DNA from: Microvenator marinus
GTDB taxonomy: Bacteria; Myxococcota_A; Bradymonadia; Bradymonadales; Bradymonadaceae
Assembly (NCBI RefSeq): GCF_007993755.1
Contig: NZ_CP042467.1
Location: forward strand, 2,194,001 to 2,258,000
DNA length: 64,000 bases
Direction of reading: 5' to 3'
Part shown: in pieces, positions 35,301 to 59,817 of the stretch
How the letters are laid out: each line of letters starts with the position of its first letter
Numbering within the stretch: the stretch's first letter is position 1
The notes under the pieces: model-generated
What the model saw: the letters and a program-made list of their open reading frames with translations, nothing else
Databases searched by the model: none
Told to the model about the DNA's origin: nothing
Made by a program: the position numbers and the translations under genes

Positions 35301-38300
35301 CCTGAGTCGTCGATTTGTGCGGCGCTGAATCCAAAATCAGGGGAGTTCGGTCCGTTGTTCAAGTAGACTTGGACCGAGTTGTGCGTAGCGCCAACCACCA
35401 CCAGGTCCGGCCAGCCGTCACCGTTGAGGTCCGCAGCCTCCACATCCGTGACAAGTTCTGCTGTGAAGATTTCGGATGGGGTTTGCCAGTCGATTGCAGG
35501 AAATGGTGTCGCAGCAAATGGATCTTGGAGCATGACCGCTGTCGGCTGTCCATCATGCCCAAAGACCACGTCGAGTCGCCCATCGTTATTGAAATCAGCC
35601 AGCGCCACGGCGGTCTGGGTCCAATTGTTCAGATGCGGGAAGTTGTTGTTTTCATACACTATGCCCTCACCATCGTTCCTCAACCATCGAGCCGTTTGAG
35701 CGGCGTCATGCACTCCGCCGATCACGAGATCGGGAATACCGTCTTGGTCGAGGTCGCCAGCAGCGATCACGTTGGTGCGTGCTGAGGAGGCCCCCGTCCA
35801 AGTGGGCAAGAAGCCTTCCGGTGCCATCACGTCGGACTGAAGCAGGTAGTTATATCCCGCTGCATTGCCAACCATGACATCGGCACGACCCGCGGCGGTC
35901 AGCGCCGCCACCACGCCTGAGCTACGCGATAATGCCGGCAGCGCGCTGGTGCGGTCGTTAGAGAGCTCTACCCATGGCCCAAATCCTCCACCGTCAATTC
36001 CATAAGCAATTTGGCTCTTGGCCGAGTCGGTAGACGAGAAGAAGACCGAATCCAGCTTTCCGTCGCTGTTCAAGTCACCAATCGCAAATGACTCATAATC
36101 CGCCGCTGGGTCGTATTCCTCATCTCCATCAGTAAACTCAGGTCCTCGGCGTGAACCAAAATATGTTGACCCGAACGCGAGGTATGCAATGTCCGGATTC
36201 CTGTCGGAGTTGACGTCCGCGACGCGAACTTTTGCGAAGTCGCGGGTTGGTCCACCTATCGATGTGGGCGCCGAGAGCGGAGTCGTCGAACCTGGGTATA
36301 TTGAAAGAATCGTGTTCGCAGCAGTCCTCGCGACTACATCTCTGACCCCGTCTCCCGTCACGTCCACCAAAAAGACCTCGTCAATATCGGTCGATAGATC
36401 CGTATAGAAGAGGGTTGCCCGCGCCCCTCCATATTGCAGCATCGCCATACCGGAGTTGCGAGTGCCGCTGTGGTAAGTACCGGGGAGAAGGATCACCAGT
36501 TCGTCCCTTCTATCTCCTCGAATATCTCCAACGGCTCCGCCGACCGCTCCCCACCCTTGATGGTCAATCAGGCCTAGATACTGCAATTGTGTGGTGTGCA
36601 GGATGGGGTCGTACGCATAGATCAGCGTTCGATCGAACGTGATGATTGCAATCTCTTGTGTATCGGTGTCCGGATCAATGAGGTTGCCAATCTCCAATTC
36701 GAAGGCACTTACATTGATCAAGTCGTTGACCACGGGAATAAAGGTCCAGTTGTTGGGGTCAAATCGATAGACTCTTAGGGTGCCGTTGGCATAAGTTACG
36801 ATTTCGTAATCATCGATCCCATCTATATCTGCGGCTCGCATGAATCCAGAACCATGCGTGACCGTTCCAAGATATCGTTCTTGGAACTCGCAATTCCCAA
36901 GACCTTGAAACACCCGAAGGAAGCCGTTTTGCTCCAAGAGGGCCACGTCCACGTGACCATCCTTATCAAAGTCCACCATCTGAATCTCTTGAGCTTCTTT
37001 TCCCTGATAAAGTGTTTTGCTGAGAGTGACTGCATTGAGACTATGCCCCTCAGTTGAACGCGCAACCATGAGGCTAACGCCCGGGGAGTGCCTTACGCTA
37101 AAGGCGAGATCTGAGATTCCATCGGAGTCACAATCACCAACTCCTTGTGCGTACATCACGCCGTCGACAACACCTGAATTGTCAAAAATGTCGTCTTCAG
37201 TGAAATCCGGTAGAAGAGGATCCACAGTTTCAACTGTGTGAACTTCATTTAATGCCCCCATGCGAAAATTCGCAAAGAAGTCCACCTTACTGTCATTGTT
37301 CAGTTTGGCGGGCGTCATTCCCGTATAGAAGTCAACTTCGGCAAATGTATTGACATTCGACTCGCAACGCCCGTCCGCAGCGCAAACGCCTCCCAACCCA
37401 CAATCATCGTTCACCAGACAAGGCTCATGACACGCGTTTGCCGTGGGATCACACGTGGTACCTGCGGGACAATCTAAATCGTCGGCACAACCGCCGACGA
37501 GGCACTCTCCAAAAACGCAGGCATCATCATTCGGACACTCATCAGATGTCGTACATTGAGTCAGACACTGCCCAGTTCCCTGGTAGCAATAGCTGTTTGG
37601 GAGATACGAACAATCTAAGTTGACCGAACAGAGCTCCCGGCACTGTCCGGCATCGCAATAGGCCGGAGCCGGGCAGTCGGGGTCTGTGAAACATGGCAGA
37701 GCACATTGTCCGTAAACACATGAATCACCAGCCTGGCAACTACCTGCAGTGCAAGGGTACTCACACTGGCCCGTCGCGAGATAGCAGTAGGTCAGACCAG
37801 CCTCAATGCATGGCAGATTGTTGGTGCAAAACTCCAAACACGCGCCTGACCCACTGTTGAGCGTTGTTTCACAATAAGAAGAACCCGCGGGGCAGACAGA
37901 GGGATCAGCGGTGCAAGGAGGCACACAAACTCCCGCGAGGCAGGTATCATCGGCCTCAGGACAGTTCGAGTTCTGAACACAAGGTTTTTGCACGATCATT
38001 CCGATCGTCCCAGGTTGATTTTGCAGAAACACGACGTCGGGCAGACGATCCCCGTTGATGTCTATCTTGCGGAAGTTCCTTAAGGCGTCTCCTCCCGTAC
38101 TCAAGACCTGAACTTGTGTACCAGTCGTCTCTTTAACTTCGAGGACTGAGTTATCGGTCTGTAGGATAAGATCTGGCGAGCTTATTCGATCAAATAGCCC
38201 AACCAGACCAGCACCATCGTTTAAGAGTGGGGTGGTAATGTTGCTGATAGTTAAAGACGACGTGCCAGAGGGTTGTGCATAAGGAACACCCGTATTGTTG

Positions 38301-39109
38301 CTCCCAAAGAAGTAGTAGGTACTGTTCACAAATGAGAAAGGCCCTGCGGTTGCCACGCCCACCGGAGTCACTGGAAGTGGATCGGTCGGGAAATCCAACC
38401 GCAGCGGAGGAAATGGAGCTGCTATCAATGAGATAAACCGTCCTCCATCTACACCTGAGCCCACGAAAACGGTTTGCGGGTTGTGAAGCCGGATATGTCC
38501 AGTAGAATTAAAGCTCGCGATTGCCGGTTGAGGAATCTGGGCCCAGACGGCCCCGGTAAACCGGAACATTCCGAACAGGCCCCCAGTTGAAAATGCGATA
38601 AGATCGTTGTAGGCGTCGCCGTTGCTCGCTTTCATGTCTAAAAGAGCACAATCCACCAACGAGGGGACCCCAATGTCCGCCTCGACCGTCGTTGTCCAAG
38701 AATTTGTCGACTTGCTGAATATCCTCAGCTTAATTGGGGCGCCTCCCATTGTCGCATCAGAGTAAGCCACCAACGCTCTAGTCCCGCTGACCGACAAACA
38801 GTGAATCCTCGGCGGAACCCCGAATGAAGCGGGGGGTATAGAGCTGTCAAAACTGAATACACCCGCATCATTCTTGTAGAAATCAACAGCTTGAGTGCTC
38901 CCAGAAGTTCTTACCAATACGATGTCCCCGTCATCATCATTGTCAAAGTCGCCCACTTCGAAAAAATGAACGTTGCTTAAAAACAATCCTGGAACCGGGC
39001 TGACCGCATTGAAATCCAACTCGTTGCGCGCTTCGAGGTTTTGACTTGTTGAAAAGACAAGAAACAATAGCGATGCGCAGAGAATGCGCCTTATCCAATA
39101 TAAATTCAT
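29375..39109 (-). CDS. Giant secreted FG-GAP/VCBS, Cys-rich, UnbV and MopE repeat protein (3,244 residues)
   Basis: This gene fills 9.7 kb. The protein has a signal peptide (about 1-28), a beta-propeller-like FG-GAP region (about 30-370), a Cys-rich array (about 370-585) of EGF/dickkopf-like units with CxxGxC spacing, a long FG-GAP/VCBS block (about 600-1420) with many DLNGDGxPDLV calcium loops, a second Cys-rich array (about 1433-1920), a further FG-GAP block, a UnbV/ASPIC domain (about 2315-2405, containing IGATVVIRNADG), a third Cys array (about 2450-2590), a beta region, and two MopE-type motifs (about 2806-2853 and 3110-3166; VCDGIDNNCNG, RCNGLDDDCDG). No sorting tail is visible. It is probably a calcium-stabilised surface or released protein that binds metals or partners. 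GGGGAC precedes the ATG. Confidence 0.9.
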   Translation of the reverse strand: MNLYWIRRILCASLLFLVFSTSQNLEARNELDFNAVSPVPGLFLSNVHFFEVGDFDNDDDGDIVLVRTSGSTQAVDFYKNDAGVFSFDSSIPPASFGVPPRIHCLSVSGTRALVAYSDATMGGAPIKLRIFSKSTNSWTTTVEADIGVPSLVDCALLDMKASNGDAYNDLIAFSTGGLFGMFRFTGAVWAQIPQPAIASFNSTGHIRLHNPQTVFVGSGVDGGRFISLIAAPFPPLRLDFPTDPLPVTPVGVATAGPFSFVNSTYYFFGSNNTGVPYAQPSGTSSLTISNITTPLLNDGAGLVGLFDRISSPDLILQTDNSVLEVKETTGTQVQVLSTGGDALRNFRKIDINGDRLPDVVFLQNQPGTIGMIVQKPCVQNSNCPEADDTCLAGVCVPPCTADPSVCPAGSSYCETTLNSGSGACLEFCTNNLPCIEAGLTYCYLATGQCEYPCTAGSCQAGDSCVYGQCALPCFTDPDCPAPAYCDAGQCRELCSVNLDCSYLPNSYCYQGTGQCLTQCTTSDECPNDDACVFGECLVGGCADDLDCPAGTTCDPTANACHEPCLVNDDCGLGGVCAADGRCESNVNTFAEVDFYTGMTPAKLNNDSKVDFFANFRMGALNEVHTVETVDPLLPDFTEDDIFDNSGVVDGVMYAQGVGDCDSDGISDLAFSVRHSPGVSLMVARSTEGHSLNAVTLSKTLYQGKEAQEIQMVDFDKDGHVDVALLEQNGFLRVFQGLGNCEFQERYLGTVTHGSGFMRAADIDGIDDYEIVTYANGTLRVYRFDPNNWTFIPVVNDLINVSAFELEIGNLIDPDTDTQEIAIITFDRTLIYAYDPILHTTQLQYLGLIDHQGWGAVGGAVGDIRGDRRDELVILLPGTYHSGTRNSGMAMLQYGGARATLFYTDLSTDIDEVFLVDVTGDGVRDVVARTAANTILSIYPGSTTPLSAPTSIGGPTRDFAKVRVADVNSDRNPDIAYLAFGSTYFGSRRGPEFTDGDEEYDPAADYESFAIGDLNSDGKLDSVFFSSTDSAKSQIAYGIDGGGFGPWVELSNDRTSALPALSRSSGVVAALTAAGRADVMVGNAAGYNYLLQSDVMAPEGFLPTWTGASSARTNVIAAGDLDQDGIPDLVIGGVHDAAQTARWLRNDGEGIVYENNNFPHLNNWTQTAVALADFNNDGRLDVVFGHDGQPTAVMLQDPFAATPFPAIDWQTPSEIFTAELVTDVEAADLNGDGWPDLVVVGATHNSVQVYLNNGPNSPDFGFSAAQIDDSGSWASSATADMDDDGDLDLVLAPVSGELHIMWNNFYVDSAPGQNQLTTAVVYRPNLPLNFDDGGAGRPVTGITSIPVFLRDAESDKADVVMQYRKVGAGTWTTFFEFPQLETSPGGRYYYFSWDTSSLGTGEFEVRANVSQAPIPPVQVVTTRAVSPPIFVVNCPACAANEVCIGLTCQPSCSVDADCPAGEVCYDSSFCETADPSTVSADISCLPGEVLIGVDCVLQCSEDTDCGAGEICNAGVCADPADPCDGVSCASGEVCVLGDCSSDLCASDADCGSGEACYAGAAVGSSACGPEDPCDAIVCPSGMSCTEGGCFDTTSVCTAPLVEYAFGCGPAPDDPTSSPCDLVQCSIDEVCVESAGTEGVSCQPACDDNADCPSGTVCFNQEFCAPENICGGLVICPAGFSCEEGSCFRQCTSNDDCSVTDVCAEGVCRPGPSPCDGVNCPQGESCYLGACFPSCSDSGDCTPPYSYCMDASVCLEVEDLCDGIVCPLGTQCHQGQCLDNCSDTDPCVDPFACYSGICAENDCSVTCPSGMVCYQNGCHTACTDSEDCVSYQVCHVSVIAPVGPDRCAGEPCNNVFCELGETCFGGVCAPVCDSDGTCDDPEHICYNNEVCLPDDPCEGVYCPIGTVCGAGTCHVACATNGDCPGFVGSAGFRNVADSVGLATPWQKFAGVAWADVNADGCLDLALNTADPAAGSRLYLANCTSPGFTDVTDTVAPIDSSGESHFQKYTRERSVIWGDWNNDGNPDLARNTSNIISLYRNTGAPNYRLVSDQAFTIPAGGAFSGRSQMNSEGMAWIDYDGDGWLDLFAEDEEYGVITYQNQRDGSFNRVDVGITDGAFFDRNGDFCAAADLNLDGNVDLVCRKPRPWTALSHHQVYFNRGNGTFTATSLIGSDASNSNKGGVTICDVNNDGRFDIIWTDNGTNQIWLQRSNGSFSPTGEPGASAGVAMTNMNDVLCGDVDHDGRQDLFWIGEAGSELYLNKSSSTELRFVRKNLGIDSRVRAYSGAMADYDRDGSLDILVHAYRQNELWENPRTDKRYLMIRALVDLREIGANVNDGTTRDGIGATVVIRNADGDILGLREVSGGRGRGSQDPAIMHFGLPYGENVPYHLRVTWPHGRVVEKCVVPSTLGEYQLVEILDTDSDDTDACDNAGDWKLLATSAEQAGEPQEYCFDGRCGEEACDHVLCPKGESCYGGVCQPVCNQNSDCAAGEACLDGVCVGDPCLGGAFVCPDGYSCSDGECRGECTDDSQCGADEQCYQGVCEPNSCDSVVCPGTQVCHQGICFDDCSSCEAPNVCVDGRCASSHCAALDDDYNDNFIFRVADGHIVGIRSSLHWFWPQPFVGAGGQTFQNFVNYSSGVSENPDVPEAHTARATLFLDRTMATTSNPEGRYVLWLSQGSKDVSQEPAMASYRVRIFNAQGTPDRVFEDDEYESYSIVQDGEFDDEYVVHAMVTSGAQDTGSIAIGRFGSHHSSGWSIEIDAEFSGDVRKWEWINADGSVIELDPRETLRLAISEAGANYYSRDAGKGCQTGKEGICRSGTSYCANGERRCTQTVQPWAFEVCDGIDNNCNGSVDEPDRLRFPMVEWRTDSTSWQLMTTIDQDQRVQDAMNFTQRGSRDRVGSTDIQSTDGTNIQAVDRSVMAMYRDLKTGGLSFINAMGRDQETNRDDYEARMRLGFPGSNTIAEAFPAFWDDRKPGDRGDDVPDRFRNSRMDLEFDLDDYEISDDDYREADSIAMMTRWSGAKVSLSEVEMTYRWRNHTDNSNSDDRLRFGVHQPGEDFLQISRQRTFHVRLSATSPENTACYADGLTTVNGCGLGLYQCGVGGVVSCSGPNDDACNRCRDADGDGYLGKDGATCPEGTDCNDNDPEIFPGAVERCNGLDDDCDGLVDIKNDTKFEELNETPPPAGSATCPVGEEQCGPQECQFLNVCVCPDGPEDPLNPPASPCYCGEGFSPPDGDELMTPWDE

Positions 39110-42398: not shown

Positions 42399-43010
42399 AT
42401 GAAGAGAATGTTGTGGGTCGCGTTGTTTGCGATCGGTTGTCACGAGACGGTCTCATCCCCGGTTGAGACTCAAGAAAGTACGCTGGAGGCTGAAAGCCCG
42501 AGTGTCGTAGATTCGCTGGATGTGGAACGGACTGAAAAGCTCAAATGGTCTGAACCTCATCAAATCGCCCAGATCGATTGGACGGAAGTCAATAAACATC
42601 AATCCGCCAGCCCTGGCCTCTTGCCAGCAGCTCAGTCTGCGAAAATCGCCGGCCTGGGCGTGCCGGTCCTGCTTCCTTCAAATCCTGAACTTATCTCGCG
42701 CGCTGAGATCGTCACGGGCGCAACGTGGTACGCCGCTTCGATGAATCACGACGGCATCAATGTGGTCATTCACGGTTCCAAGCAGTCCGAGAATCTGGAA
42801 TTGAATGTAACCGACGAGGCCCGTGAGTTGATGCGCAACTTCACAGTCTATCGCACGCACGAAATCGTCACGCTAACCTTCAATATGTACGGCGTCGCGT
42901 ATTCGTTGGACATCGAGTGCGCCGCTCCCACCACCGACGATCGTTGCAACAAAGACGAGACCGTCATGACCATGGCTGAAAACCTCGTGCTCGCAGGAGG
43001 TCAGCCATGA
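42399..43010 (+). CDS. Lipoprotein of unknown function, partner of the M23 peptidase
   Basis: A 203-residue lipoprotein with a short lipobox (LFAIGC) at residue 13, a low-complexity acidic linker, and a soluble domain from about 45. I recognise no domain. ATG 42399 was chosen so that the lipobox has a normal leader; upstream in-frame codons would give an implausible long leader. Its stop overlaps the ATG of the M23 peptidase gene (ATGA, 43007-43010), so the two are translationally coupled and the protein may be an accessory of the peptidase at the envelope. Confidence 0.7.
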   Translation: MKRMLWVALFAIGCHETVSSPVETQESTLEAESPSVVDSLDVERTEKLKWSEPHQIAQIDWTEVNKHQSASPGLLPAAQSAKIAGLGVPVLLPSNPELISRAEIVTGATWYAASMNHDGINVVIHGSKQSENLELNVTDEARELMRNFTVYRTHEIVTLTFNMYGVAYSLDIECAAPTTDDRCNKDETVMTMAENLVLAGGQP

Positions 43011-44407
43011 AAAACCTTGCCTTTTTGATACTCTTGACCATGCCCGGCCTCGTATTTGCCAACGACTTTGCATATCAGCCGCCTGGCCAACTTGTTTCGG
43101 GAAGTGGCACCGGCCGCTCGGACAATACGGTTTACGTAGAGAATATGCGCTATCCCATCGAGAACGCGCCTTCGTACCCGAACTCTCAGGTGTGGGGTGT
43201 TGGCGGCTCGCAGGGTCCTGCCGGCGGTCAATGCGATTCACGCAATTACTCTTATCCATGGTGGGATAATTTCTGTGAGTCTCGAAGCTGGGATATGCCA
43301 CTTTGCCCAAGCGGAAGAGGCCACCAGGGCCAAGATATTCGCCCGGCCACGTGCGAAAATAAGGTCCACGGGACCGTTGCGGCCGAAGCCGGAACGATTA
43401 CCAGTATCGGAACATACAGCGTTTACCTCACAACGGCCTCCGGCACGCTCCATCGCTACCTTCACATGGACCCGGGAACTTTGGCCGTAAGCCGAGGTCA
43501 GACCGTGACCAAAGGCCAACGACTCGGTCTGGTCTCGAATGCCTTTGGCGGAACCCCCACCACGATTCATCTCCACTACGATATCATGAAGAACGTGAGT
43601 GGCTTCGGTCAGGTCTATGTGCCGCCCTATATGAGCCTTGTTCGCTCGTACGAAACACTCATCGGCCAACCTGCCGTGCCATGCGCCATCCTCCCTGCGG
43701 ATGGTGGTGTTTTGGACAACCAGGGACCTTGCTTCACGCAGTACGGGCCATCGCAATATTGGCGAGTGGTGGATGGTCAGGGCGAAGGCGGTAGCTTCCA
43801 GTGGACGAACGCATTTGATGGCGCAAACCCAAGCAATTGGGCGTCATGGAGAATCCACGTGGAGCAAGACGGTGAGTACACCGTAGAGTTCAACGTGGTA
43901 CCCGGATTCAACAAGTCCAAGCAAGTGCCCTATCTCGTCAAACACGACGGCGGCGAGGACCGCAAAGTCGTTGACCAGAGTACCGTACCGACCTGGCATA
44001 TGCTTGGAACCTACACGTTCAAGGCCGGCGGAGACAATCTCGTCGCCGTCTATGATAATACCGGCGAGTCCGCGAGTGATATGCATATCACGGCGGATGC
44101 GATTCGCGTTCGTCCAGTATCCGCGGGACCAGACCCAGAGCCGATGCCGGACCCAGATCCAGATCCAACTCCAGATCCCACACCTGACCCGACTCCGAAC
44201 CCTACGCCGGACCCTGACTATCCAGACGATCCAAAGGTGGATCCAACGATTCCCGGTGGCGAGCTTCCCGAGGGTAGGAATCAGGTTTCGACGAGCAATG
44301 GTTGCTCAGCTGCGCACGGGTCGCCGGGATGGTTGTTGCTCTTGCTTGGGTTTGGATTTGCGCGGCGTAACTTGTCAGCAGAATCTAGAAAACATCGGCC
44401 ATTTTGA
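43007..44407 (+). CDS. M23 metallopeptidase with golvesin-like domain and MYXO-CTERM-like tail
   Basis: A 466-residue exported protein. After a signal peptide (1-19, ending VFAND), an M23/LytM domain carries His106 and Asp110 (GHQGQDI) and the HxH pair His188/His190 (TTIHLHYDI), the zinc ligands of peptidoglycan endopeptidases. A golvesin-like beta domain follows (about 245-370, WRVVDGQGEGG to ADAIRVRP). A (D/P)PDPTPDP linker leads to a C-terminal GCS motif at 432-434, a hydrophobic LLLLLGFGF stretch and a basic end, the MYXO-CTERM pattern for surface anchoring. It may cut peptidoglycan or prey walls. The last 23 bp overlap the convergent aminotransferase gene. Confidence 0.93.
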   Translation: MKNLAFLILLTMPGLVFANDFAYQPPGQLVSGSGTGRSDNTVYVENMRYPIENAPSYPNSQVWGVGGSQGPAGGQCDSRNYSYPWWDNFCESRSWDMPLCPSGRGHQGQDIRPATCENKVHGTVAAEAGTITSIGTYSVYLTTASGTLHRYLHMDPGTLAVSRGQTVTKGQRLGLVSNAFGGTPTTIHLHYDIMKNVSGFGQVYVPPYMSLVRSYETLIGQPAVPCAILPADGGVLDNQGPCFTQYGPSQYWRVVDGQGEGGSFQWTNAFDGANPSNWASWRIHVEQDGEYTVEFNVVPGFNKSKQVPYLVKHDGGEDRKVVDQSTVPTWHMLGTYTFKAGGDNLVAVYDNTGESASDMHITADAIRVRPVSAGPDPEPMPDPDPDPTPDPTPDPTPNPTPDPDYPDDPKVDPTIPGGELPEGRNQVSTSNGCSAAHGSPGWLLLLLGFGFARRNLSAESRKHRPF

Positions 44408-48160: not shown

Positions 48161-49591
48161 ATGAAGACGCTCGCCGTAGTTTGCATTTTCGGGGTGACAG
48201 CCACACTCACCGTGCTCGCCGTGGCGTTTACGCAATGGTGGCCACCGCTACAACCACTCTGGGTAGGCATTGGGGCTATCGCGCTTCCAATGCTTTTGGC
48301 GATGGCGTTTTTAGAGCCCGAATTCCGTCAATTCAATATCGTGACCATCGCACTGAGCCTCGCAGCCAGCATGATTTTGGGCGTGGCATTGCCGGGGCTC
48401 TGGGCCAAACCCGAGGTCCGAAGTGCCGTAGCGGCTCATACGACCACTCGAAACGTGGACCTCGCGCTCGGCGACGAAAACCCTTCAGTTCAAATGGTAG
48501 CCTGCCATCAAACCTTCGCTCTCAATCTGCCCGTCATCGATGTTTTGGGACTTCTAGAGCCGCATCCAACGATCGCGGTTGAATGTCTGGGAAGAGAAGA
48601 CGCTGGAAATATCCCCGAACAAATGGTCGCTCGCTGGGGCTCAACGCTGAATTTCGGGGACTCATGTGAGCTCCTCGAGCCTATCATGAGTTTGGGCAAT
48701 GTGGACCCCAAGGCCAAAGCGATCGAGGTCCTACAATGTGGCGTGACGGCGAAGTCTGATACCGTTCGCGCCTGCTGCCTTGATAGCTTGAGCAAACTTG
48801 GCAAGCCTGAAGATTACAAGGCCTGGATTTCTAGAATGAGCTTCGACGTGGACCAGCGCGGCTGGCTTGCGGACCTCGTCTTGGCGTCTCATCTGCAAGG
48901 CGACTCTGTCCCTAAGGCCCTTATGGCAAAGACGGCCTCATCGGGTTTGAGCTCCCCTGACGTCAAAGCAGGGATTCTCTTCGCGGGATGCGAGGCCTAC
49001 CTGGGAACGGCGAAATCCGCAGGACTTGGCGGCGCTATGCGTTGGGCCATCGGGGAACACACATCGTGCATCTCCGAGCAGTCCACCCTTGAGGTGTCCC
49101 CTGCGGTTGATGAAGTTTGCAGGGAATACATCTCGAGTAAACCGTCATTGGAGGCGTTTTGCGCAGCCAATGAACAGGCGAGGTTGAGCCGAATCGCCGC
49201 GGATGAAGCGGTCGCGCAAACACAATCGTCGGAAGAACTCGGGGCCCTAGCAGGGGCAATAAACTCGGGATACAACCGCGAAGCTGCTGTGACTATCGAC
49301 GACTACCTCCACGCCGCCGACCAAATCCAACGAGGTGAAAAGCCGCGCCATTTCACGGCAACCGAACGCGAAGCCTTGAGGCGAGATGTCGCAAGGACAA
49401 GGCCAAACGTTCGAGGCAAAGAGGATATCACCTCCATTGTCTCTCAAACTCAGAAGCGGATTGCTGAATTGGAGAAGAACCCGGACCTAAAGAAGCTCAA
49501 GGAGGCTAAGACCAAGAGCGAAGTCGATAAGATCCGTCAGGGATTTATCGAAAGAGAGAAGAACGCAGGTGGGGCACCTAAGTCCCAATAA
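48161..49591 (+). CDS. Membrane protein of unknown function (476 residues)
   Basis: Three closely spaced membrane helices occupy residues 5-80 (TLAVVCIFGVTATLTVLAV, LWVGIGAIALPMLLAMAF, IVTIALSLAASMILGVALP), followed by a large soluble domain. That domain has helical pairs with many Cys in CLDSLSKLGK-like units, reminiscent of HEAT/armadillo repeats (about 95-330), and a charged, Glu/Lys-rich C-terminus (390-476) that looks coiled-coil. The gene is followed 141 bp downstream by the TadE-like operon and may belong to the same functional group. No catalytic motif is seen. Confidence 0.65.
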   Translation: MKTLAVVCIFGVTATLTVLAVAFTQWWPPLQPLWVGIGAIALPMLLAMAFLEPEFRQFNIVTIALSLAASMILGVALPGLWAKPEVRSAVAAHTTTRNVDLALGDENPSVQMVACHQTFALNLPVIDVLGLLEPHPTIAVECLGREDAGNIPEQMVARWGSTLNFGDSCELLEPIMSLGNVDPKAKAIEVLQCGVTAKSDTVRACCLDSLSKLGKPEDYKAWISRMSFDVDQRGWLADLVLASHLQGDSVPKALMAKTASSGLSSPDVKAGILFAGCEAYLGTAKSAGLGGAMRWAIGEHTSCISEQSTLEVSPAVDEVCREYISSKPSLEAFCAANEQARLSRIAADEAVAQTQSSEELGALAGAINSGYNREAAVTIDDYLHAADQIQRGEKPRHFTATEREALRRDVARTRPNVRGKEDITSIVSQTQKRIAELEKNPDLKKLKEAKTKSEVDKIRQGFIEREKNAGGAPKSQ

Positions 49592-49629
49592 TGCGAGATC
49601 TGTGACACGAACGCACACCTAATCGCAAG

Positions 49630-49647
49630 AATCATCGCTAGATGATT
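49630..49647. promoter_or_regulatory. Inverted repeat before the TadE-like operon
   Basis: AATCATC-GCTA-GATGATT is a perfect 7-bp stem with a tetraloop, 38 bp after the stop of the 476-residue protein gene and 86 bp before the TadE gene. There is no T-run, so it may be an operator or a weak terminator. Confidence 0.35.
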
Positions 49648-49732
49648 GAATTCGAGTCACTTAATGAAAATGGATCGATTTTTGCTTGGTTATAAGACCA
49701 AGAAATTTGTTGTAAAACACATAGCCCGCTGA

Positions 49733-50719
49733 ATGCGTATGCAAACCACGACTGGAAAACTCACTCGATGGCTAGGTTGGGGCGTTGCTCATAGCCTTGG
49801 AATCGCAACCATTGCGGTACTTTTTAGCTTCTTCGCCTTTGACCTGACCCGGTTCCAACTGGCCTGGAAGTCGCTTGGAAATGGATTCCAAATTGATTGG
49901 GCGTCACTTGCGCTCCACGTTGGCCTTAGCGCCTGTGCGTGGTTCCTTCTGATCATTGCTATCATGTGGGGCGTTGAGCGGCGGCGCGAATCGAAACGCA
50001 AAGTTGTCAAACTGACGCGTGGCTCGATCATGATCGAGTTCTTGATCATCTTAACCCCATTTCTATTGCTCACGAGCGGCTTGGCCCAGCTGACGATGCT
50101 CAATATCACCGGTATGCTCGCAGACCTTGCAGCATTTGAGGCGGCTCGTGTGGCGTGGGTATGGGCCCCAGAATTGGACGCAGACCGGAACGTGACGCCC
50201 TACTTGGTCAAAGACCGCGCACGCGCTACAGCCTCCATGGTCTTGGCCCCAACGGCACCCAATGATTATTATGTGGGTCGAACAACGCCTCCGGGTAGTT
50301 CCAACTACTACCGGCGCCAACGCGCGATTTTGACCGGGGCATTCCAAGCTGATGGGACCCAAGGCCCCTCGGTGTACGAATGGAGTGGAGGTCAAACAGC
50401 CTTGACTGGAGGAGGCGCTTTCGACCTCGACGTTGAAGAGGCAAGCTCCGAGAACCTCTACTTCCACCGCTCCTTTGACGAATCGTCGTTTGCGCACCGC
50501 GCAGCAAGGAAAATGACTTTTGCTGAATGGGGACTCTGGGATGATTTCGAAGTGATTCAGGGCGACCGGACAGGGGTTCGATTTACGTATCGATACAATC
50601 TGATTTTCCCATGGTTCGGCTATATCTGGGGCCAGAAGAACGAGGTCGGTATGCGCGAGGGATATTATTCTCCCATCCCTCGTGAGCACACGTTCGCAAG
50701 CCAGAGGAGTATGGAATGA
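49733..50719 (+). CDS. TadE-like protein with two extra N-terminal membrane helices
   Basis: A 328-residue protein. It has two membrane helices (about 18-40 and 62-84), a basic linker, and a third helix with pilin-like entry RGSIMIEF (Gly97, Glu102) that matches the TadE motif (G....E then hydrophobic), followed by a soluble domain of about 190 residues ending in hydrophobic-polar alternation. Canonical TadE starts near its motif, so the two preceding helices are unusual. No strong ribosome site precedes the ATG; 49739 is an alternative. The next gene overlaps its stop by ATGA (50716-50719). Confidence 0.7.
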   Translation: MRMQTTTGKLTRWLGWGVAHSLGIATIAVLFSFFAFDLTRFQLAWKSLGNGFQIDWASLALHVGLSACAWFLLIIAIMWGVERRRESKRKVVKLTRGSIMIEFLIILTPFLLLTSGLAQLTMLNITGMLADLAAFEAARVAWVWAPELDADRNVTPYLVKDRARATASMVLAPTAPNDYYVGRTTPPGSSNYYRRQRAILTGAFQADGTQGPSVYEWSGGQTALTGGGAFDLDVEEASSENLYFHRSFDESSFAHRAARKMTFAEWGLWDDFEVIQGDRTGVRFTYRYNLIFPWFGYIWGQKNEVGMREGYYSPIPREHTFASQRSME

Positions 50720-52068
50720 AAGAGCTCATCTCCCGCACGCTTGAGCGTTTCCATAAGTCGCAATCTGGTGCCGTGGCGCTTCTTTGCCTCGCTTCCTTGC
50801 TCATTCTCTTTATGTGCGCGCTCATCATGTACGACGCGAGCCTCGTGATTCGAGGTAAAACAGACGCCCATATGGCGGCTGACACAGCGGCCTATTCGCA
50901 GGCCTCCGTCGAGGCCCGTTCCATGAACATGATCGCCTTTGCTAACGTGGGTAAACGCACCATCGTCGGCATCCACAACATGTACTATTTCCAGTACCCG
51001 ATGTACCTGATTTGGTGGCTCGGTCAGTGCTCCAAATGTTGCTGTGGTTGGTATTGTGGGTGTTGGACCGAGTGCTTCAACTGTTTCGGAAACCTCATAG
51101 ACGGCTCTCCCATTATGGAGGCCATCGACTGGGCTAGTTTCCTCGGCAATGACGACCTCGAGCAAAATCTAGAAGATCTCGATACCTTCCAAGACGACTT
51201 GAGAGAGTATGCGGCGTACTGGGGTGTGGGCGAGGCCATGGTGCGTGGCGTCAGAAATGGCGCGAACATGATCACGAACTTCCCTGCCCCCGACAATAGC
51301 GAGTATGGCCCGCTACCGTTGGAGCGAGGCAACCCGTCAGAATCATGCCTGACCCCGACACCACTGGCGGATAACCCTGTCACGCTCGTGACCTTGATCG
51401 AGTGGTATGCAAACTTCCAAGATTTGAAGGACCGAAGTACCAGCAGCCCGAACATCGCGAGCGAAGGCCCTGCCGAGCGCGTTAATATAGCGTACTCGTT
51501 CCTCGCTTGCCCGCTAATGACGCCGGATGAGGGGGCTCCGTTCTTTAACGCGGCGGACTCCAATAGCAGCGAGCACATGCTTCAGCGCTCCAACTACGTC
51601 TGGTCGTACAAGCACACGCCAGATAACGACGGGATATTGCGCAATAACTACATGTTCATGTCCAAGGAATACACGCCACCTTCAAACGTCACGATGCCCA
51701 AAACGGGCATTTGGTCTATCGCTCGAAGCGAGTTCTACTTCCCGCCGAGCAACAAGCCGGACACCATCCTCTTTGACGGTGCGCACGATATGTGGATGTT
51801 CCACCCCGGTTGGTACGGAAAGATCAGGCCGACCACGCTGCCACGCGAAGAACCTCCGGTGGATCACGACGAGATGTTCGACGAATCGCTTGAGCTCGGA
51901 CGAGACATGGCTCAGGGCCAGTTCTTCATCTTCGCAGTCGATAACTTCGATTTCATGGGCTTCCAAAACGATATTCGATACATGCAGCGAAACGTCACCC
52001 CTGCAATGAAGGGCATGGTCGACAACGGTGGTGAGGATCGCCACATCACAGACGGGATGTCACGATGA
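50716..52068 (+). CDS. TadG-like pseudopilin protein with Cys-rich insert
   Basis: A 450-residue protein with N-terminal KSQSGAVALLCLASLLILF (Gly18), a TadG-type entry of pilin-like proteins that lacks the +5 Glu, then a predicted single helix and a large extracytoplasmic domain. An exceptional Cys run occupies residues 105-123 (QCSKCCCGWYCGCWTECFNC region, 8 Cys in 19 residues), likely disulfide-bonded or metal-binding. The rest is soluble with aromatic-rich loops. Its start and end overlap the neighbouring genes by ATGA, indicating stoichiometric coupling. Confidence 0.68.
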   Translation: MKELISRTLERFHKSQSGAVALLCLASLLILFMCALIMYDASLVIRGKTDAHMAADTAAYSQASVEARSMNMIAFANVGKRTIVGIHNMYYFQYPMYLIWWLGQCSKCCCGWYCGCWTECFNCFGNLIDGSPIMEAIDWASFLGNDDLEQNLEDLDTFQDDLREYAAYWGVGEAMVRGVRNGANMITNFPAPDNSEYGPLPLERGNPSESCLTPTPLADNPVTLVTLIEWYANFQDLKDRSTSSPNIASEGPAERVNIAYSFLACPLMTPDEGAPFFNAADSNSSEHMLQRSNYVWSYKHTPDNDGILRNNYMFMSKEYTPPSNVTMPKTGIWSIARSEFYFPPSNKPDTILFDGAHDMWMFHPGWYGKIRPTTLPREEPPVDHDEMFDESLELGRDMAQGQFFIFAVDNFDFMGFQNDIRYMQRNVTPAMKGMVDNGGEDRHITDGMSR

Positions 52069-52823
52069 TTCAAAAGATTAGATATTGGATTCGAAACGAA
52101 GATGGCGTGGCCATGACCGAGTTTGTGATCACGCTCCCAGTCTTCATCTTGATCTTCACCGGGATCGTGAACCTGCACAAACTCGAGTGGAACAATAACC
52201 GCGTGAAATACCTGGCAGCCACCGAGATGTGGGACAATGCCATGGCGATTCACGACACCAACCTGATCGGCATGCTGCCGTTTGAGCATTCGTTCCCGAT
52301 GTATTCCGCTGCAATGGAACTCAGCGAAATTGGCTCTCATCAAAGTCCACAAGGTGACATTCAAGCTATGCAAATCGCATTTGGACTCTTCGATGGCTCC
52401 AAAGGCGAAGCCGAAGCAGCAGGCGGATTTGCTGATGGCGGTTCTACCGCTTACGAATACGGCTCCGATTTCTCAGAAGACATGACCAAAGACACCGGGA
52501 TTAACCCACTCAGCTTCTCGGGCAAGACGGCAATGATGGCGTTCAATGTGGCCGTACCGTTCACGTACATGGGCACCAGACACGCCTCGGCACTCGGTAC
52601 CCGATACGGAATCGTAACCGGTGAAAACTCAAGAACCGTGAGCATTCCGGGACACACAGGCAATTTCAACTACGGATACGATGTCCTCGTATCCCCAACC
52701 TCAGTACCTGGCGGATTCCTCAACGAACTCATCGTCGTGGGTCACTCAAGGCTGGCCGCTGAGGATTCACCCTGTCTCAGCTCGGTGCTGAAGATCAGCA
52801 ATGACGGAGATTACGATTGTTAG
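52065..52823 (+). CDS. TadE/pseudopilin-like protein
   Basis: A 252-residue protein with a TadE-type N-terminus: NEDGVAMTEFVITLPVFILIF (Gly14, Glu19), followed by a helix and a soluble C-terminal domain of about 210 residues. The G/E pair matches prepilin processing and assembly signals. The start overlaps the previous stop (ATGA). The next gene begins 7 bases before its stop. It should be a minor pilin-like component or a periplasmic assembly factor. Confidence 0.72.
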   Translation: MIQKIRYWIRNEDGVAMTEFVITLPVFILIFTGIVNLHKLEWNNNRVKYLAATEMWDNAMAIHDTNLIGMLPFEHSFPMYSAAMELSEIGSHQSPQGDIQAMQIAFGLFDGSKGEAEAAGGFADGGSTAYEYGSDFSEDMTKDTGINPLSFSGKTAMMAFNVAVPFTYMGTRHASALGTRYGIVTGENSRTVSIPGHTGNFNYGYDVLVSPTSVPGGFLNELIVVGHSRLAAEDSPCLSSVLKISNDGDYDC

Positions 52824-54136
52824 AGCAACTTCCAAAAGTATTCGCCAAATTCGCGCTCAGTGGGGCTGTGCTTGGGGGCATCTTTTGGGGCGTCATGACG
52901 CTCTATCCCTCGACTCGCGGTGTAGAAGTTAAGCCATCTGATGCCGATATCTTGACCTTCGGTTTTGCCGGTCCCTCGGACATGCAAAAGTTCAGTGAGG
53001 CGCTGAACCGAATGGGACACGAGACCCCCCGTGTCTACAACATGAACGAAAACACGGTTTTCTTCTCGACCGCCGTTCATCCGTACAAAAAGCCCGACGA
53101 AGTTCTGCGTGAATATCAAGAGGAGTTTGTGCGCCAGGGCGTCAACAAGAAAGCCTATCGGCACGCTCCAGGAAAACTCCTCACCATGGGTCAAGAGGGA
53201 GCAGACGAAGAGTTTAGGGCCATGCAAGAGGGTTCGCTCAACGGCGAAGTCATCCCTTATCAAATCTCCTCAAACCATTTCGCCATGGGTGGCACCCAAA
53301 TGGATCTCGGAGACGAGGACCCTGACTCTGAAGATTTCAAACGCAAGGTCGACCTACTCGAGAAGAACGTCCACATGATTTCTGGCGCCTATCGCGCATG
53401 TGGGGGCAAGCCCCTTTACGAGCCACAACCCGCGGCAAAGAAGACGTTCGTTGAGACAGCGAATGAGGACGTCAATAAGGCGGCAGCCAAAGAGTGCGCT
53501 AGCGAAGGCGGCTTTTGTGAAGAGACGCGTAGCCGACACGCAGAGCTCTCGGCGGAGCTCGGTGTGCTTCAGCGCGCAATCCAAGCGCAGCCACATCTCA
53601 AGCAATGTGAGATCATGAAAAAAGTCGGCGAAGGCATGATGGGGAACGCCACCGACGAGTTCGCGCGCCGCGTCAAGAGCTTCAAAGCGCTCGAGGCGTT
53701 CTACGATGCCGAGCGCAATATGACGCACGTCAGCGCAACGTGGACGGATGTAGATTTCGACGCGACCAAGACCACCCCAAATCAGGCGAACCCTCTCAAA
53801 GAAACCAACGTCTCATCGCGCCTCCCGCTCTGCGAAGGATGCGAGCGCACTTGGGATTTTGGAGGCAGTGGTAAGGAAAGCAACTACTCGGTTGGCCAGG
53901 TAACAAGCCCTCAATCCGTACGTCAGACCTCGGATTATTATATTCGTGAACTGACCCGCAAGGGCTGGCAGGTTTCGGAGGCACAATCCGCCATCAACGA
54001 GATTTATCGGCTTTCCGGCAAGCAGGACGACGGCAATCGCTGGCTACGTGTCGTCAGAGGGCGCGAGCATATGACGGTTCATATTCGCCCCGGCGAAGGT
54101 GGAAGCAGTCGAGTGACGGCGACCACAGCGAACTGA
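52817..54136 (+). CDS. Membrane-anchored protein of unknown function, last of the TadE-like operon
   Basis: A 439-residue protein beginning at a TTG (52817) that overlaps the upstream stop by 7 bp. One membrane helix (about 10-29, FALSGAVLGGIFWGVMTLY) is followed by a large soluble domain with several Cys (KECASEGGFC, LCEGCERTW) and a His/Met-rich segment. I recognise no family. Position and overlap suggest it is an accessory of the pilin-like proteins. A hairpin including its stop codon forms the boundary with the convergent lipoprotein gene. Confidence 0.6.
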   Translation: MLEQLPKVFAKFALSGAVLGGIFWGVMTLYPSTRGVEVKPSDADILTFGFAGPSDMQKFSEALNRMGHETPRVYNMNENTVFFSTAVHPYKKPDEVLREYQEEFVRQGVNKKAYRHAPGKLLTMGQEGADEEFRAMQEGSLNGEVIPYQISSNHFAMGGTQMDLGDEDPDSEDFKRKVDLLEKNVHMISGAYRACGGKPLYEPQPAAKKTFVETANEDVNKAAAKECASEGGFCEETRSRHAELSAELGVLQRAIQAQPHLKQCEIMKKVGEGMMGNATDEFARRVKSFKALEAFYDAERNMTHVSATWTDVDFDATKTTPNQANPLKETNVSSRLPLCEGCERTWDFGGSGKESNYSVGQVTSPQSVRQTSDYYIRELTRKGWQVSEAQSAINEIYRLSGKQDDGNRWLRVVRGREHMTVHIRPGEGGSSRVTATTAN

Positions 54137-56506: not shown

Positions 56507-57688
56507 ATGCGAGATTTGCGCTGGGTAATAGTTTTAATCGCTATCTATTCTTCCGAGGTCATGGCCGCTACACCCGTGGTGGAGACGCCGAGCTACGGAT
56601 GGGTGCTCTTCCGCATGGTGCTCATGCTCGGAGCGGTCTGCATACTCGCCTGGGTGAGCCTAAAATGGGGGCTTAAACGTTGGGTGACACCAGACGCCAA
56701 AGCGGGACCTATGCAGGTGCTCGCGCGATTGCCGTTAGAGCCAAGGCGAACCATCAACCTTATCAAAGTAGGTCAACGCGTGCTGGTGGTGGGAAGCAGC
56801 GAGCACGGCATGCACGCGCTCGGCGATTTGAGTCTCGATGAGGTTGAACTCGAAGAATTGGACGCGAAATCAGAAGACGCAGAAGAGGCCGAGCCTAAGG
56901 ATGAGGACTCTGAGTCAAGTCCGTTCAAGAATATTCTCGACCAGGTCAAGCGTGCAGGGCTCATCCTTCTGACTGCGCTTCCGGTGACTTTGATCTCCGA
57001 TACGGCGTTCGCTCAGGTTCCCGGGACATCACAGAGCCCGCTGACGCTCGTAGCGCTCCTGGCCATCCTGGCTCTTCTTCCCTTCCTCTTGGTCATGGTC
57101 ACGAGCTTTGTGAAGATCGCGGTGGTCTTGAGTATTTTGAGGACGGCTATCGGCGTCCAACAGGCTCCGCCCAACCAGGTCATCACAGGTTTGGCCATGA
57201 TTCTGAGCCTCTACGTGATGGCGCCGGTGGCCATTGAGGCGTGGGAGGCGAGCAAGCCGTCCATAGACCAGATGGAAGCGGGTGAATTTGATGCGTCAGT
57301 GGCGAATTACCAGTCGCTGGGCGAGGAAGCCGCAGCGCCGCTGAAGACCTTCTTGCTCAAACACACCGATGACGAAGAGCGCGTGCAACTCTACGAAATC
57401 TCGCTGCAATTGCGTACCGAAGAGCAGCGAAAATCCATCACTCCAGAAGACCTTCTGATAGTGATACCGGCCTTCGTCATGACCGAGCTCAAAGAAGCCT
57501 TCATGATAGGTTTTGTGCTCTTTATCCCGTTCATTCTGGTGGACCTTGTGGTGGCCAATATCCTGCTTAGTCTCGGCATGCACATGCTCAGTCCCACCAC
57601 GGTCAGCCTCCCATTCAAACTCTTGCTCTTCGTGCTCGTGGACGGATGGACACTGGTGATTCGGGGACTTTTGCTGGGGTATGTCTGA
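56507..57688 (+). CDS. sctR: FliO-like domain fused to type III export-gate protein SctR/FliP
   Basis: A 393-residue fusion. Residues 1-21 look like a signal peptide; 30-55 are a membrane helix, and about 70-107 form a FliO-like small domain with LPLEPRRTINLIKVGQRVLV and VGSSEHGMHAL. An acidic linker (about 108-140) leads to a second signal-peptide-like segment LILLTALPVTL..DTAFAQ, ending AFA-Q at residues 167-170, and then a complete FliP/SctR domain of about 245 residues with SILRTAIGVQQAPPNQV and LSPTTVSLPFKLLLFVLVDGW. FliP of E. coli is made with a similar cleavable signal (AFAQLPG). Signal peptidase could therefore split the product into FliO and SctR (inference). No in-frame start is present at the junction. 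The stop overlaps sctS as TGATG. Confidence 0.9.
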   Translation: MRDLRWVIVLIAIYSSEVMAATPVVETPSYGWVLFRMVLMLGAVCILAWVSLKWGLKRWVTPDAKAGPMQVLARLPLEPRRTINLIKVGQRVLVVGSSEHGMHALGDLSLDEVELEELDAKSEDAEEAEPKDEDSESSPFKNILDQVKRAGLILLTALPVTLISDTAFAQVPGTSQSPLTLVALLAILALLPFLLVMVTSFVKIAVVLSILRTAIGVQQAPPNQVITGLAMILSLYVMAPVAIEAWEASKPSIDQMEAGEFDASVANYQSLGEEAAAPLKTFLLKHTDDEERVQLYEISLQLRTEEQRKSITPEDLLIVIPAFVMTELKEAFMIGFVLFIPFILVDLVVANILLSLGMHMLSPTTVSLPFKLLLFVLVDGWTLVIRGLLLGYV

Positions 57689-57955: not shown

Positions 57956-58759
57956 GTGCAAGGGCTGATCAACACAGGCTACGTTTTTCAGGAGGGATTT
58001 CTGCTCGTCATGATCATCTCGGCGAGAATTGTGCCTGTAGTCCAGCTCGTGCCGTATCTGGGTGGCAAAGCCACGCCACAAGTCGTCAAGATGGGCATCT
58101 CGCTTTGCCTGGCCCTGCTCTTGATGCCGCTCGTCTGGCAAACAAAAGACGCACTTCCGAACTCCCCACCGGCGCTCGCCGTCATCATCGCCAAAGAGGT
58201 CTTGGTAGGCATGACCATCGGGTTTGTGGGCGCGCTGGTCTTTGAGGCGTTGCGTATCGCAGGCCAGATCATGGACACCACGCGCGGCCAAAATATGGCC
58301 ACCGCTATGGTCCCCCAACTCCCAGAGCGCGTGAGCCTCTCCGCGGATGTCTTGCTTCAGCTTGGGATCGCAATCTTCCTGATCATCGGCGGCCACCGCG
58401 TCCTGATTTCGGCGCTCTTGATAAGCTACAAAGCTGTCCCTGTGCACGTGTTGCCGGATGCGGCCACCACCACCCAGGCGGCCGCACTGATCGCGGAGCT
58501 CTTTGGGGCGTCGTTCACCGTTGCGCTCCTGATGGCATTCCCCGTGGTCGCGTCGGTATTGCTGGCTGAACTGGTTCTCGCGCTCATCAACAAGTCAGCA
58601 CCCAACGTCAACGTCTTCTTTCTCGGCATGCCGCTAAAAGCCATGATCGGCCTCTTCGCCCTCATGGTTTCGCTAGAATCCATCATCAACCTGATGATTT
58701 CCGAGTCCTTGTTTGAACTCCGCGCACTCAGCGCCCTTCTGGAGAGTCTCGCGCCATGA
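57956..58759 (+). CDS. sctT: Type III export-gate protein SctT/FliR
   Basis: A 267-residue membrane protein with about six or seven helices, starting at GTG (57956) 4 bases after the sctS stop. It carries the family pattern SARIVPVVQLVPYLGG (about 22-37) and MGISLCLALLLMPLVW, plus a central gating region GQIMDTTRGQNMATAM. In the export gate it completes the SctR5SctT1 channel. The end overlaps sctU by ATGA (58756-58759). Confidence 0.94.
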   Translation: MQGLINTGYVFQEGFLLVMIISARIVPVVQLVPYLGGKATPQVVKMGISLCLALLLMPLVWQTKDALPNSPPALAVIIAKEVLVGMTIGFVGALVFEALRIAGQIMDTTRGQNMATAMVPQLPERVSLSADVLLQLGIAIFLIIGGHRVLISALLISYKAVPVHVLPDAATTTQAAALIAELFGASFTVALLMAFPVVASVLLAELVLALINKSAPNVNVFFLGMPLKAMIGLFALMVSLESIINLMISESLFELRALSALLESLAP

Positions 58760-59817
58760 GTGACGATAAGACAGAAGAGCCAAGTGCACAGAAACTTCGT
58801 AAAGCCCGTGAAGAAGGCAATGTCCCCAAATCCCAAGAATTCACGGGTATGCTCGTCATGGTCACGGCGCTGGTTGCCACTCTTGCGTGGTGGCCGTCTG
58901 CGGCCGGGCGAATTCTAGGGTTCTTTAGGGAAGCCTCAGAATTTGCAGCGCGCACGCCGGACCACAATGACCTGCTCAACTTTCTAAAAGACTCCGTAGA
59001 AGTCATGGCCTTTGCCATCACGCCCATTTTGGCGGCGAGCTTCGCGATCGCCCTCTTTGTGAACTACGTGCAAGTTGGCCCTGTATTCGCCAAGAAGCCG
59101 CTGATTCCAGATATGACCAGGCTCAATCCGGCGGGCGGTCTCAAGAATATGTTCACCAAGCAGAAGCTGATCGAACTTGGTAAGAACCTGCTCAAACTAG
59201 CCATGATGGGTTGGGTTGGGACTTGGCTCTATACAAAGTATGTTGGCCAACTCGCGCTTTCACCACGACTTGAGCTCATCCAGGCCATCGCTACGTTCTA
59301 TGAGATCGCCTACCAACATGCGAAGTACTTGGTGGGCGGGCTTGTGATCTTTGCGATCATCGATCTCCTCCTGGTTCGTCGTAAGTATCGGCAAGATATG
59401 ATGATGTCCAAGCAAGAGGTCAAAGACGAGTACAAGCAGAGCGAAGGCGATCAGAACGTCAAAGGTCAGCGCAAACGCTTACACCAAGAGATGCTGCGTG
59501 AAGCCGGCACTAGTCGCGTCAAGAAGGCAGATGCGGTGGTGGTCAACCCCACGCATATCGCGGTGGCGATTCTCTATGACGAAGACACCATGCGCGCCCC
59601 CGAGGTGATCGCGAGTGGGCGCGGGGGAAAAGCGGATGAGATACGCCGCCTTGCCAAACGGCATGGCGTACCGATCGTTCGCAACGTCAACCTTGCGCGC
59701 GCATTGATCAACGTGGACGTGGAGGACGAGATCCCGGGCGATCTCTATGAGGCCGTGGCCGAAGTTCTTATGTTTGTTTACGATTTGAGGAAGAAAGATG
59801 CCGCTGAAAAAAGATGA
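58756..59817 (+). CDS. sctU: Type III export switch protein SctU/FlhB
   Basis: A 353-residue protein with four membrane helices in the first 215 residues and a cytoplasmic domain. The autocleavage motif NPTH is intact (Asn264-Pro265-Thr266-His267), followed by IAVAILYDEDTMRAP. The start TEEPSAQKLRKAREEGNVPKSQEF is the conserved family N-terminus. SctU/FlhB closes around the SctS ring and switches substrate class after self-cleavage. It is followed with a 20-bp overlap by a TPR gene. Confidence 0.96.
   Translation: MSDDKTEEPSAQKLRKAREEGNVPKSQEFTGMLVMVTALVATLAWWPSAAGRILGFFREASEFAARTPDHNDLLNFLKDSVEVMAFAITPILAASFAIALFVNYVQVGPVFAKKPLIPDMTRLNPAGGLKNMFTKQKLIELGKNLLKLAMMGWVGTWLYTKYVGQLALSPRLELIQAIATFYEIAYQHAKYLVGGLVIFAIIDLLLVRRKYRQDMMMSKQEVKDEYKQSEGDQNVKGQRKRLHQEMLREAGTSRVKKADAVVVNPTHIAVAILYDEDTMRAPEVIASGRGGKADEIRRLAKRHGVPIVRNVNLARALINVDVEDEIPGDLYEAVAEVLMFVYDLRKKDAAEKR

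Follow-up and report, generated by a model that had tools for sequence, protein, structure and literature searches.

A KilLNM-like minor pilin cassette of Microvenator marinus, probably one of five alternative tips for a distant Tad pilus

The window considered here is a stretch of 64,000 nucleotides (positions 2,194,001-2,258,000) of the genome of Microvenator marinus, a single contig of 5,847,748 bases, and within it lies a cluster of five genes encoding three minor pilin-like proteins and two further membrane proteins. It is probable that this cluster, or cassette, is one of five interchangeable sets of tip genes serving a single Tad pilus of the Kil type that acts in prey contact. Behind this reading stand the gene content of the cassettes, their homology, order, copy number, conservation and motifs, and the presence in the same genome of a Tad machine and a type III secretion system (T3SS). 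The five genes are the following.

48161..49591, + strand: X1, 476 aa, three N-terminal transmembrane (TM) segments and a predicted periplasmic Cys-rich HEAT-like domain; an optional member
49733..50719, + strand: L, KilL/TadE-like minor pilin, 328 aa, a 97-residue leader with two TM segments, then RG/SIMIEF
50716..52068, + strand: N, KilN/TadG-like large minor pilin, 450 aa, PF13400 N-terminus
52065..52823, + strand: M, small minor pilin in the KilM/TadF position, 252 aa, TadE PF07811, predicted G/xxxxE site DG/VAMTEF
52817..54136, + strand: X5, 439 aa, TTG start, one N-terminal TM segment, predicted periplasmic, CxxC at C339/C342

All five frames are open, and the last four genes overlap their neighbours (L/N by 4, N/M by 4 and M/X5 by 7 bp). 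An earlier note on this DNA had seen here three TadE/TadG-like genes with pilin-like N-termini, and the profile searches bear this out: N matches Tad PF13400 at 25.4 bits (cut-off 22.3) and M matches TadE PF07811 at 25.4 bits, whilst L, matched by PF07811 over residues 97-139, falls just below the cut-off of 22.9 in hmmscan (21.7 bits) and above it in the genome-wide search (26.4 bits). The two extra helices that the note described in the first pilin gene are found as hydrophobic segments at residues 18-36 and 59-77, ahead of the pilin helix, and the membrane protein that it placed after the pilin genes with a 7-bp overlap is X5. A Pfam scan of the window proteins gave no good family match for X1 or X5. 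Genome-wide searches with T2SSE, T2SSF, Peptidase_A24 and Secretin had zero matches inside the window, so that the Tad ATPase, platform, secretin and peptidase are lacking there, as had been noted. The cluster is real and intact, has no Tad machinery within the window, and is not a chance arrangement, since homologous gene blocks in the same order recur at 50 non-redundant L loci.

The same note had called the cluster one without Tad machinery, which holds for the window but not for the genome. The whole-genome search that it proposed located a Tad locus (L022) at 4,935.7-4,945.0 kb, 2.7 Mb from the window cassette, with RcpC, a secretin, a T2SSE protein fused to FHA, two T2SSF proteins, an FHA protein, a TPR protein and a Flp-like protein. 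The ATPase and platform genes at 4.936-4.945 Mb are thus far from lying just outside the window at 2.194-2.258 Mb. The locus lacks just the minor pilins: no TadE or TadG was found at it, and the genome's three PF07811 and four PF13400 matches all fall in cassettes. Two A24 peptidases lie at 2.820 and 5.104 Mb, and Flp has four weak matches, all below cut-off, at 2.326, 5.147, 2.855 and 4.944 Mb. The window cassette is therefore unlinked from the ATPase, platform and secretin genes and is not in the tad locus itself, yet it is no orphan, because the genome holds a Tad locus without TadE/F/G.

Five paralogous cassettes, each with L-N-M-X5, are found in this genome (G000): A in the window, B (L024), C (L033), D (L034) and E (L037), the last of which begins about 2.6 kb past one of the two A24 peptidases. 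X1 stands upstream in A, B and E. The proteins of cassettes B-E share 27-33% (L), 26-31% (N), 24-33% (M) and 23-29% (X5) identity with those of the window. Across the phylum, where up to seven candidates per genome were scored, so that copy numbers above seven would escape, a five-sequence L profile matched 37 of 282 genomes at E <= 1e-5. These comprise all but one of the 21 family genomes (20, G000 included), with 1-5 copies each, and 17 of 261 others, in which the matches are much weaker (best 3.6e-14). A 31-sequence X5 profile matched 39 of 282, of which 19 belong to the family of 21 and 20 to the 261 other genomes. A scan of named genomes gave 15 loci, Lujinxingia vulgaris TMQ2 among them; Lujinxingia is assigned to Bradymonadales, and the family of the window includes Lujinxingia vulgaris.

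It is apparent that L and X5 are kept in step. Their copy numbers are equal in 11 of the 12 family genomes with completeness of 90% or more and contamination of 5% or less (G000 5/5, G007 4/4, G013 4/4, G018 3/3, G023 5/5, G033 5/5, G042 4/4, G047 2/2, G062 4/4, G145 4/4 and G086 0/0), the exception being G072 with 3/4. The nine remaining family genomes are equal in four cases (G090, G111, G131, G188) and unequal in five (G081, G140, G183, G202, G212). The 50 non-redundant cassettes with L, from which, as from the tree and the motif and leader tallies below, 11 duplicate named loci and the weakly matching Lentisphaerae locus L082 were excluded, comprise 29 of the form L-N-M-X5, 11 X1-L-N-M-X5, nine X1-L-N-M without an adjacent X5 and one L-N. 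The lone L-N cassette is at a contig end, and L091, one of the nine lacking an adjacent X5, is also cut by one. With X1 upstream of 20 of the 50, the conserved five-gene unit predicted earlier stands as a conserved multi-gene unit, but its core is the four genes L-N-M-X5 and X1 is optional. In three genomes of one genus (G013, G023, G033) an X1-type cassette without adjacent X5 (L098, L102, L108) shares its contig with an X5 gene at a distance of 62-63 kb (G013:C4:174240, G023:C2:359998, G033:C135:250075).

A tree of the joined L, N and M alignments assigns the five G000 cassettes to five different clades, each shared with cassettes from other genera. A groups with G131/G145/G007, C with G131, and B, D and E each with G042, at a local support of 1.00 in every case but D (0.98). 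As these clades are shared between genera, the copies look like old tip types and not like recent duplications.

The three pilin-like proteins differ in their predicted processing sites. L has G/xxxxE before the hydrophobic helix in all 50 cases; in M the site is G/E in 42 of 49, A/E in six and G/V in one, an overlong open reading frame (ORF); N mostly has the glycine, but with L in place of E at +5 (G/L in 35 of 50). The leader of L is unusual, with two TM segments lying wholly before the site glycine in 43 of 50 proteins at a hydropathy cut-off of 1.6 (one segment in four, none in three) and in 47 of 50 at a cut-off of 1.3, although the leader lengths of 70-191 are approximate, the mechanical ORF start being overlong at some loci. 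Among 12 proteins in the L position from other families, the leader is long in half, five of these six having two segments and the sixth a single segment, and short without segments in the other six. The two-TM leader, as judged from the translations, is thus conserved in the family cassettes yet not exclusive to them. An AlphaFold model of N has a long alpha1, a second long helix, a beta part and distal regions of low confidence. The alignments used for folding held 11 X5 and 15 N sequences, from the window and the loci fetched as related, against 40 X5 and 50 N in the motif tally.

X5 has one TM segment in most members and a CxxC that is invariant in 31 of 31. Neither an alignment searched against Pfam and PDB sequences nor a single member scanned against NCBIfam gave it a family, and its AlphaFold model (mean predicted local distance difference test (pLDDT) score 72.2) had no Foldseek match at E <= 0.001, the best being 0.032. 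In VIA-align the modelled C-terminal domain aligns with PA1624 (Z 9.6, root-mean-square deviation 3.6, 106 aligned), DcrB (Z 8.7; 3.0, 89), SciW (Z 7.6; 2.9, 79), PsbP (7.0) and BamC (6.7), and Z 8, the level which the tool calls common, is exceeded by PA1624 and DcrB alone. This is a hint that the domain may resemble DcrB/PsbP-like folds, at Z values near the common background; this fold group includes SciW, a type VI secretion system chaperone. Most members of X1 have three TM segments, and beyond these, in an alignment of 17 sequences, Cys 115, 142, 205, 277, 320 and 334 are invariant and Cys 169 nearly so. The HEAT-like repeats that the earlier note gave to this upstream membrane protein are weak in the single X1 protein (E 0.0054, below cut-off), but the 17-sequence profile finds alphaRep structures of the HEAT-like kind (best E 8.7e-12), which fits a HEAT-like domain in the periplasm. 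That X5 is a folding, assembly or loading factor present once per tip type is a guess, as is a role of X1 as an extra periplasmic scaffold in some of the types.

In other Myxococcota, where a check of synteny had also been proposed, the L-N-M-X5 block recurs, and there it is inside tad loci, between the prepilin peptidase and RcpC, with X5 between the minor pilins and RcpC. All seven genomes outside the family that match both the L and the X5 profiles carry the two on one contig, a few kb apart. At 13 loci picked for X5 matches (L156-L168) the N profile matches in 12, all but L165, and the L profile in 10; at L166-L168 the protein in the L place is TadE-like and matches the M profile instead. 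Pfam neighbours of the block are A24 and Flp (L156), A24 (L159), and RcpC, secretin and FHA-T2SSE (L156 and L164). L-N-M-X5 is therefore a normal part of the tad locus elsewhere and stands unlinked and multiplied in Bradymonadales, and we infer that change ran from the first state to the second. The fusion of TadA to FHA is present in both tad loci of other families that were checked and is not exclusive to a Kil-type setting.

The export-gate genes of a further T3SS, distinct from the flagellar one, start 2.4 kb downstream of cassette A, separated from it by two minus-strand genes and not in the cassette operon.

56507..57688, + strand: SctR, fused in frame to an N-terminal FliO-like domain, TIGR01102 233.4 bits (cut-off 208.6), FliO 43.6 bits
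57688..57951, + strand: SctS/FliQ-type export protein, 87 aa, scoring above cut-off with the FliQ as well as the SctS model
57956..58759, + strand: SctT/FliR-type export protein, below the cut-off of both equivalog models
58756..59817, + strand: SctU/FlhB-type export switch protein, below the cut-off of both equivalog models

The FliP model matches SctR below its cut-off. SctV is found alone at 1.073 Mb and SctN, SctL and SctJ together at 1.786-1.790 Mb; SctR, SctV and SctN score above cut-off, and SctJ, SctL, SctT and SctU match below it. The last of these regions (G000:C1:1786000-1790000, L154:12376-15630) reads SctN, SctL, a 186-aa protein and SctJ, and the T3SS is thus split over three loci. 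No secretin was found at the T3SS loci in the genome search, the genome's three secretin proteins lying elsewhere, and needle and translocon were not searched for. The window-type SctU is matched in 19 of 21 family genomes, with a second, weaker match in four, including the known flagellar one of G000. A flagellar identity for SctRSTU was rejected, as a separate flagellar locus (L129) has its own FlhA/FlhB/FliR/FliP, most gene names there being read by eye from the translations. Rejected too was the idea that cassette and SctRSTU form a conserved unit, given the two genes between them and the lack of a T3SS match beside the other fetched cassettes. The occurrence of both cassettes and window-type SctU across the family fits a pairing of Kil and T3SS, though their neighbourhood at cassette A is not conserved.

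Elsewhere in the window, 29375-39109 on the minus strand encodes a protein of 3244 aa that combines FG-GAP repeats with MopE-type Cu-binding motifs and a UnbV/ASPIC domain, and the product of 43007-44407 joins an M23 peptidase to a Golvesin C-terminal domain.

If the cassette is a tip complex, the KilL-, KilN- and KilM-like minor pilins would be inserted in the inner membrane and cut by a prepilin peptidase, after which a heterotrimer with bundled N-terminal helices would cap and prime the Flp filament and the large KilN-like protein would present its distal domain to the target cell. The filament would be pushed out by the machine of the locus 2.7 Mb away, with its FHA-fused TadA ATPase, platform proteins and secretin. 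X5 would be a membrane-anchored periplasmic partner, one per tip type, and X1 an additional periplasmic scaffold for some types, and the pilus may act in prey contact together with a T3SS having no secretin of its own. Trimer formation, the position at the tip, prey contact and killing are proposed by analogy with Myxococcus xanthus. A more specific version, in which each tip of the Bradymonadales arsenal has a dedicated X5 that loads or matures it and a KilL made with a cleavable two-TM hairpin leader, is put forward tentatively and may well prove wrong; if true, X5 would be a fourth component so far missing from the Tad tips of Myxococcota generally.

Several points weigh against tips of the Kil type. 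Sequence searches reported in PMC12075869 failed to find Tips beyond myxobacteria, and the likeness to the M. xanthus Tips is one of gene order, families and content. The N model has a mean pLDDT of only 67, and Foldseek against PDB returned 20 matches with a best E of 0.87, thus no fold match. The adjacency of cassette and SctRSTU is seen at no other fetched cassette. Finally, G086, a family member that is 93% complete, has the SctU-type gene and no cassette, which makes it a natural comparison for tip loss.

The strongest alternative is that the cassettes supply an adhesive pilus with the usual minor pilins of Tad systems (TadE/F/G), with unlinked copies for attachment to surfaces or particles and no part in killing. 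Tad pili generally need TadE/F/G, and the same L-N-M-X5 block occurs in ordinary-looking tad loci of other Myxococcota families; against this, one to five old tip types per genome and an SctU gene of non-flagellar type in 19 of 21 family genomes match the Myxococcus predation set, and Bradymonadales prey by contact (PMC7460792), which makes the adhesive pilus unlikely. It is very improbable that the cassettes are a surface or secretion system of their own that does not use the Tad locus, for although they lie far from that locus in G000 and have the extra conserved genes X1 and X5, they are without ATPase, platform and secretin, the block of other families is inside tad loci, and the G000 Tad locus is without exactly these parts. 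That the cluster is a degenerate remnant of a lost tad locus, as the absence of machinery genes near it might suggest, can be rejected as the least credible reading, its five frames being intact, overlapping and with counterparts across genera, a conservation that largely refutes it, in a genome with a complete-looking Tad locus.

The importance of candidate tips in this family lies in the recent demonstration that Tad-pilus tips underlie the contact-killing range of Myxococcus. Another lineage of predators, carrying as many as five old, unlinked tip types recognisable from sequence, would be an independent system in which to ask whether tip choice sets prey range, and X5, as a fourth conserved cassette protein, offers a definite starting point for finding out how the tips of Tad pili are put together. 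The kind of system is itself known; new are the five old unlinked tip types, the X5 partner kept at about 1:1 with KilL, and the two-TM KilL leader. In a limited search of open papers, by titles and the openings of abstracts, X5, X1 and a multi-cassette repertoire in Bradymonadales were undescribed.

The closest known counterparts are the four KilLMN Tips of M. xanthus, which are partly redundant in killing, are encoded by four paralogous clusters with the order L-N-M at mxan_4658-4660, and work with a T3SS lacking a secretin (Herrou 2025, PMC12075869). The cassettes share with Tip1-4 the L-N-M order, the several paralogous clusters, the short KilM and the large KilN, and with the Kil system at large the FHA-fused ATPase machine and, alongside, a T3SS with no secretin found at its loci. 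They differ in number, there being five, in their accessory genes, X5 in all and X1 in three, which the parts of PMC12075869 consulted do not mention, and perhaps in the two-TM KilL leader. The same paper predicts by structure a potential Tip in Bradymonas sediminis, a Tip-like minor pilin complex in the same order, Bradymonadales, whereas here sequence yields the repertoire across the whole family, together with its paralogue clades and accessory genes. Kil-like systems in Bradymonadales were reported by Seef 2021 (PMC8460266), with the FHA-fused ATPase as the stated Kil signature; predation in this order is contact-dependent, with T3SS export genes upregulated (Mu 2020, PMC7460792), and Tad-like and T3SS genes have been named in bradymonabacteria (PMC11509652). 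With the TadE/TadF/TadG proteins of standard tad loci the cassettes have in common the Pfam families, the prepilin sites and, in other Myxococcota, the position of the block, but they are unlinked from the machine, multiplied, and ordered L-N-M with X5 added. The T3SS may be a counterpart of the needleless T3SS* of Myxococcus, having SctRSTU, V, N, J and L, in part as matches below cut-off, with no secretin at those loci, and differs from it in being split over three loci and in an SctR fused to a FliO-like domain.

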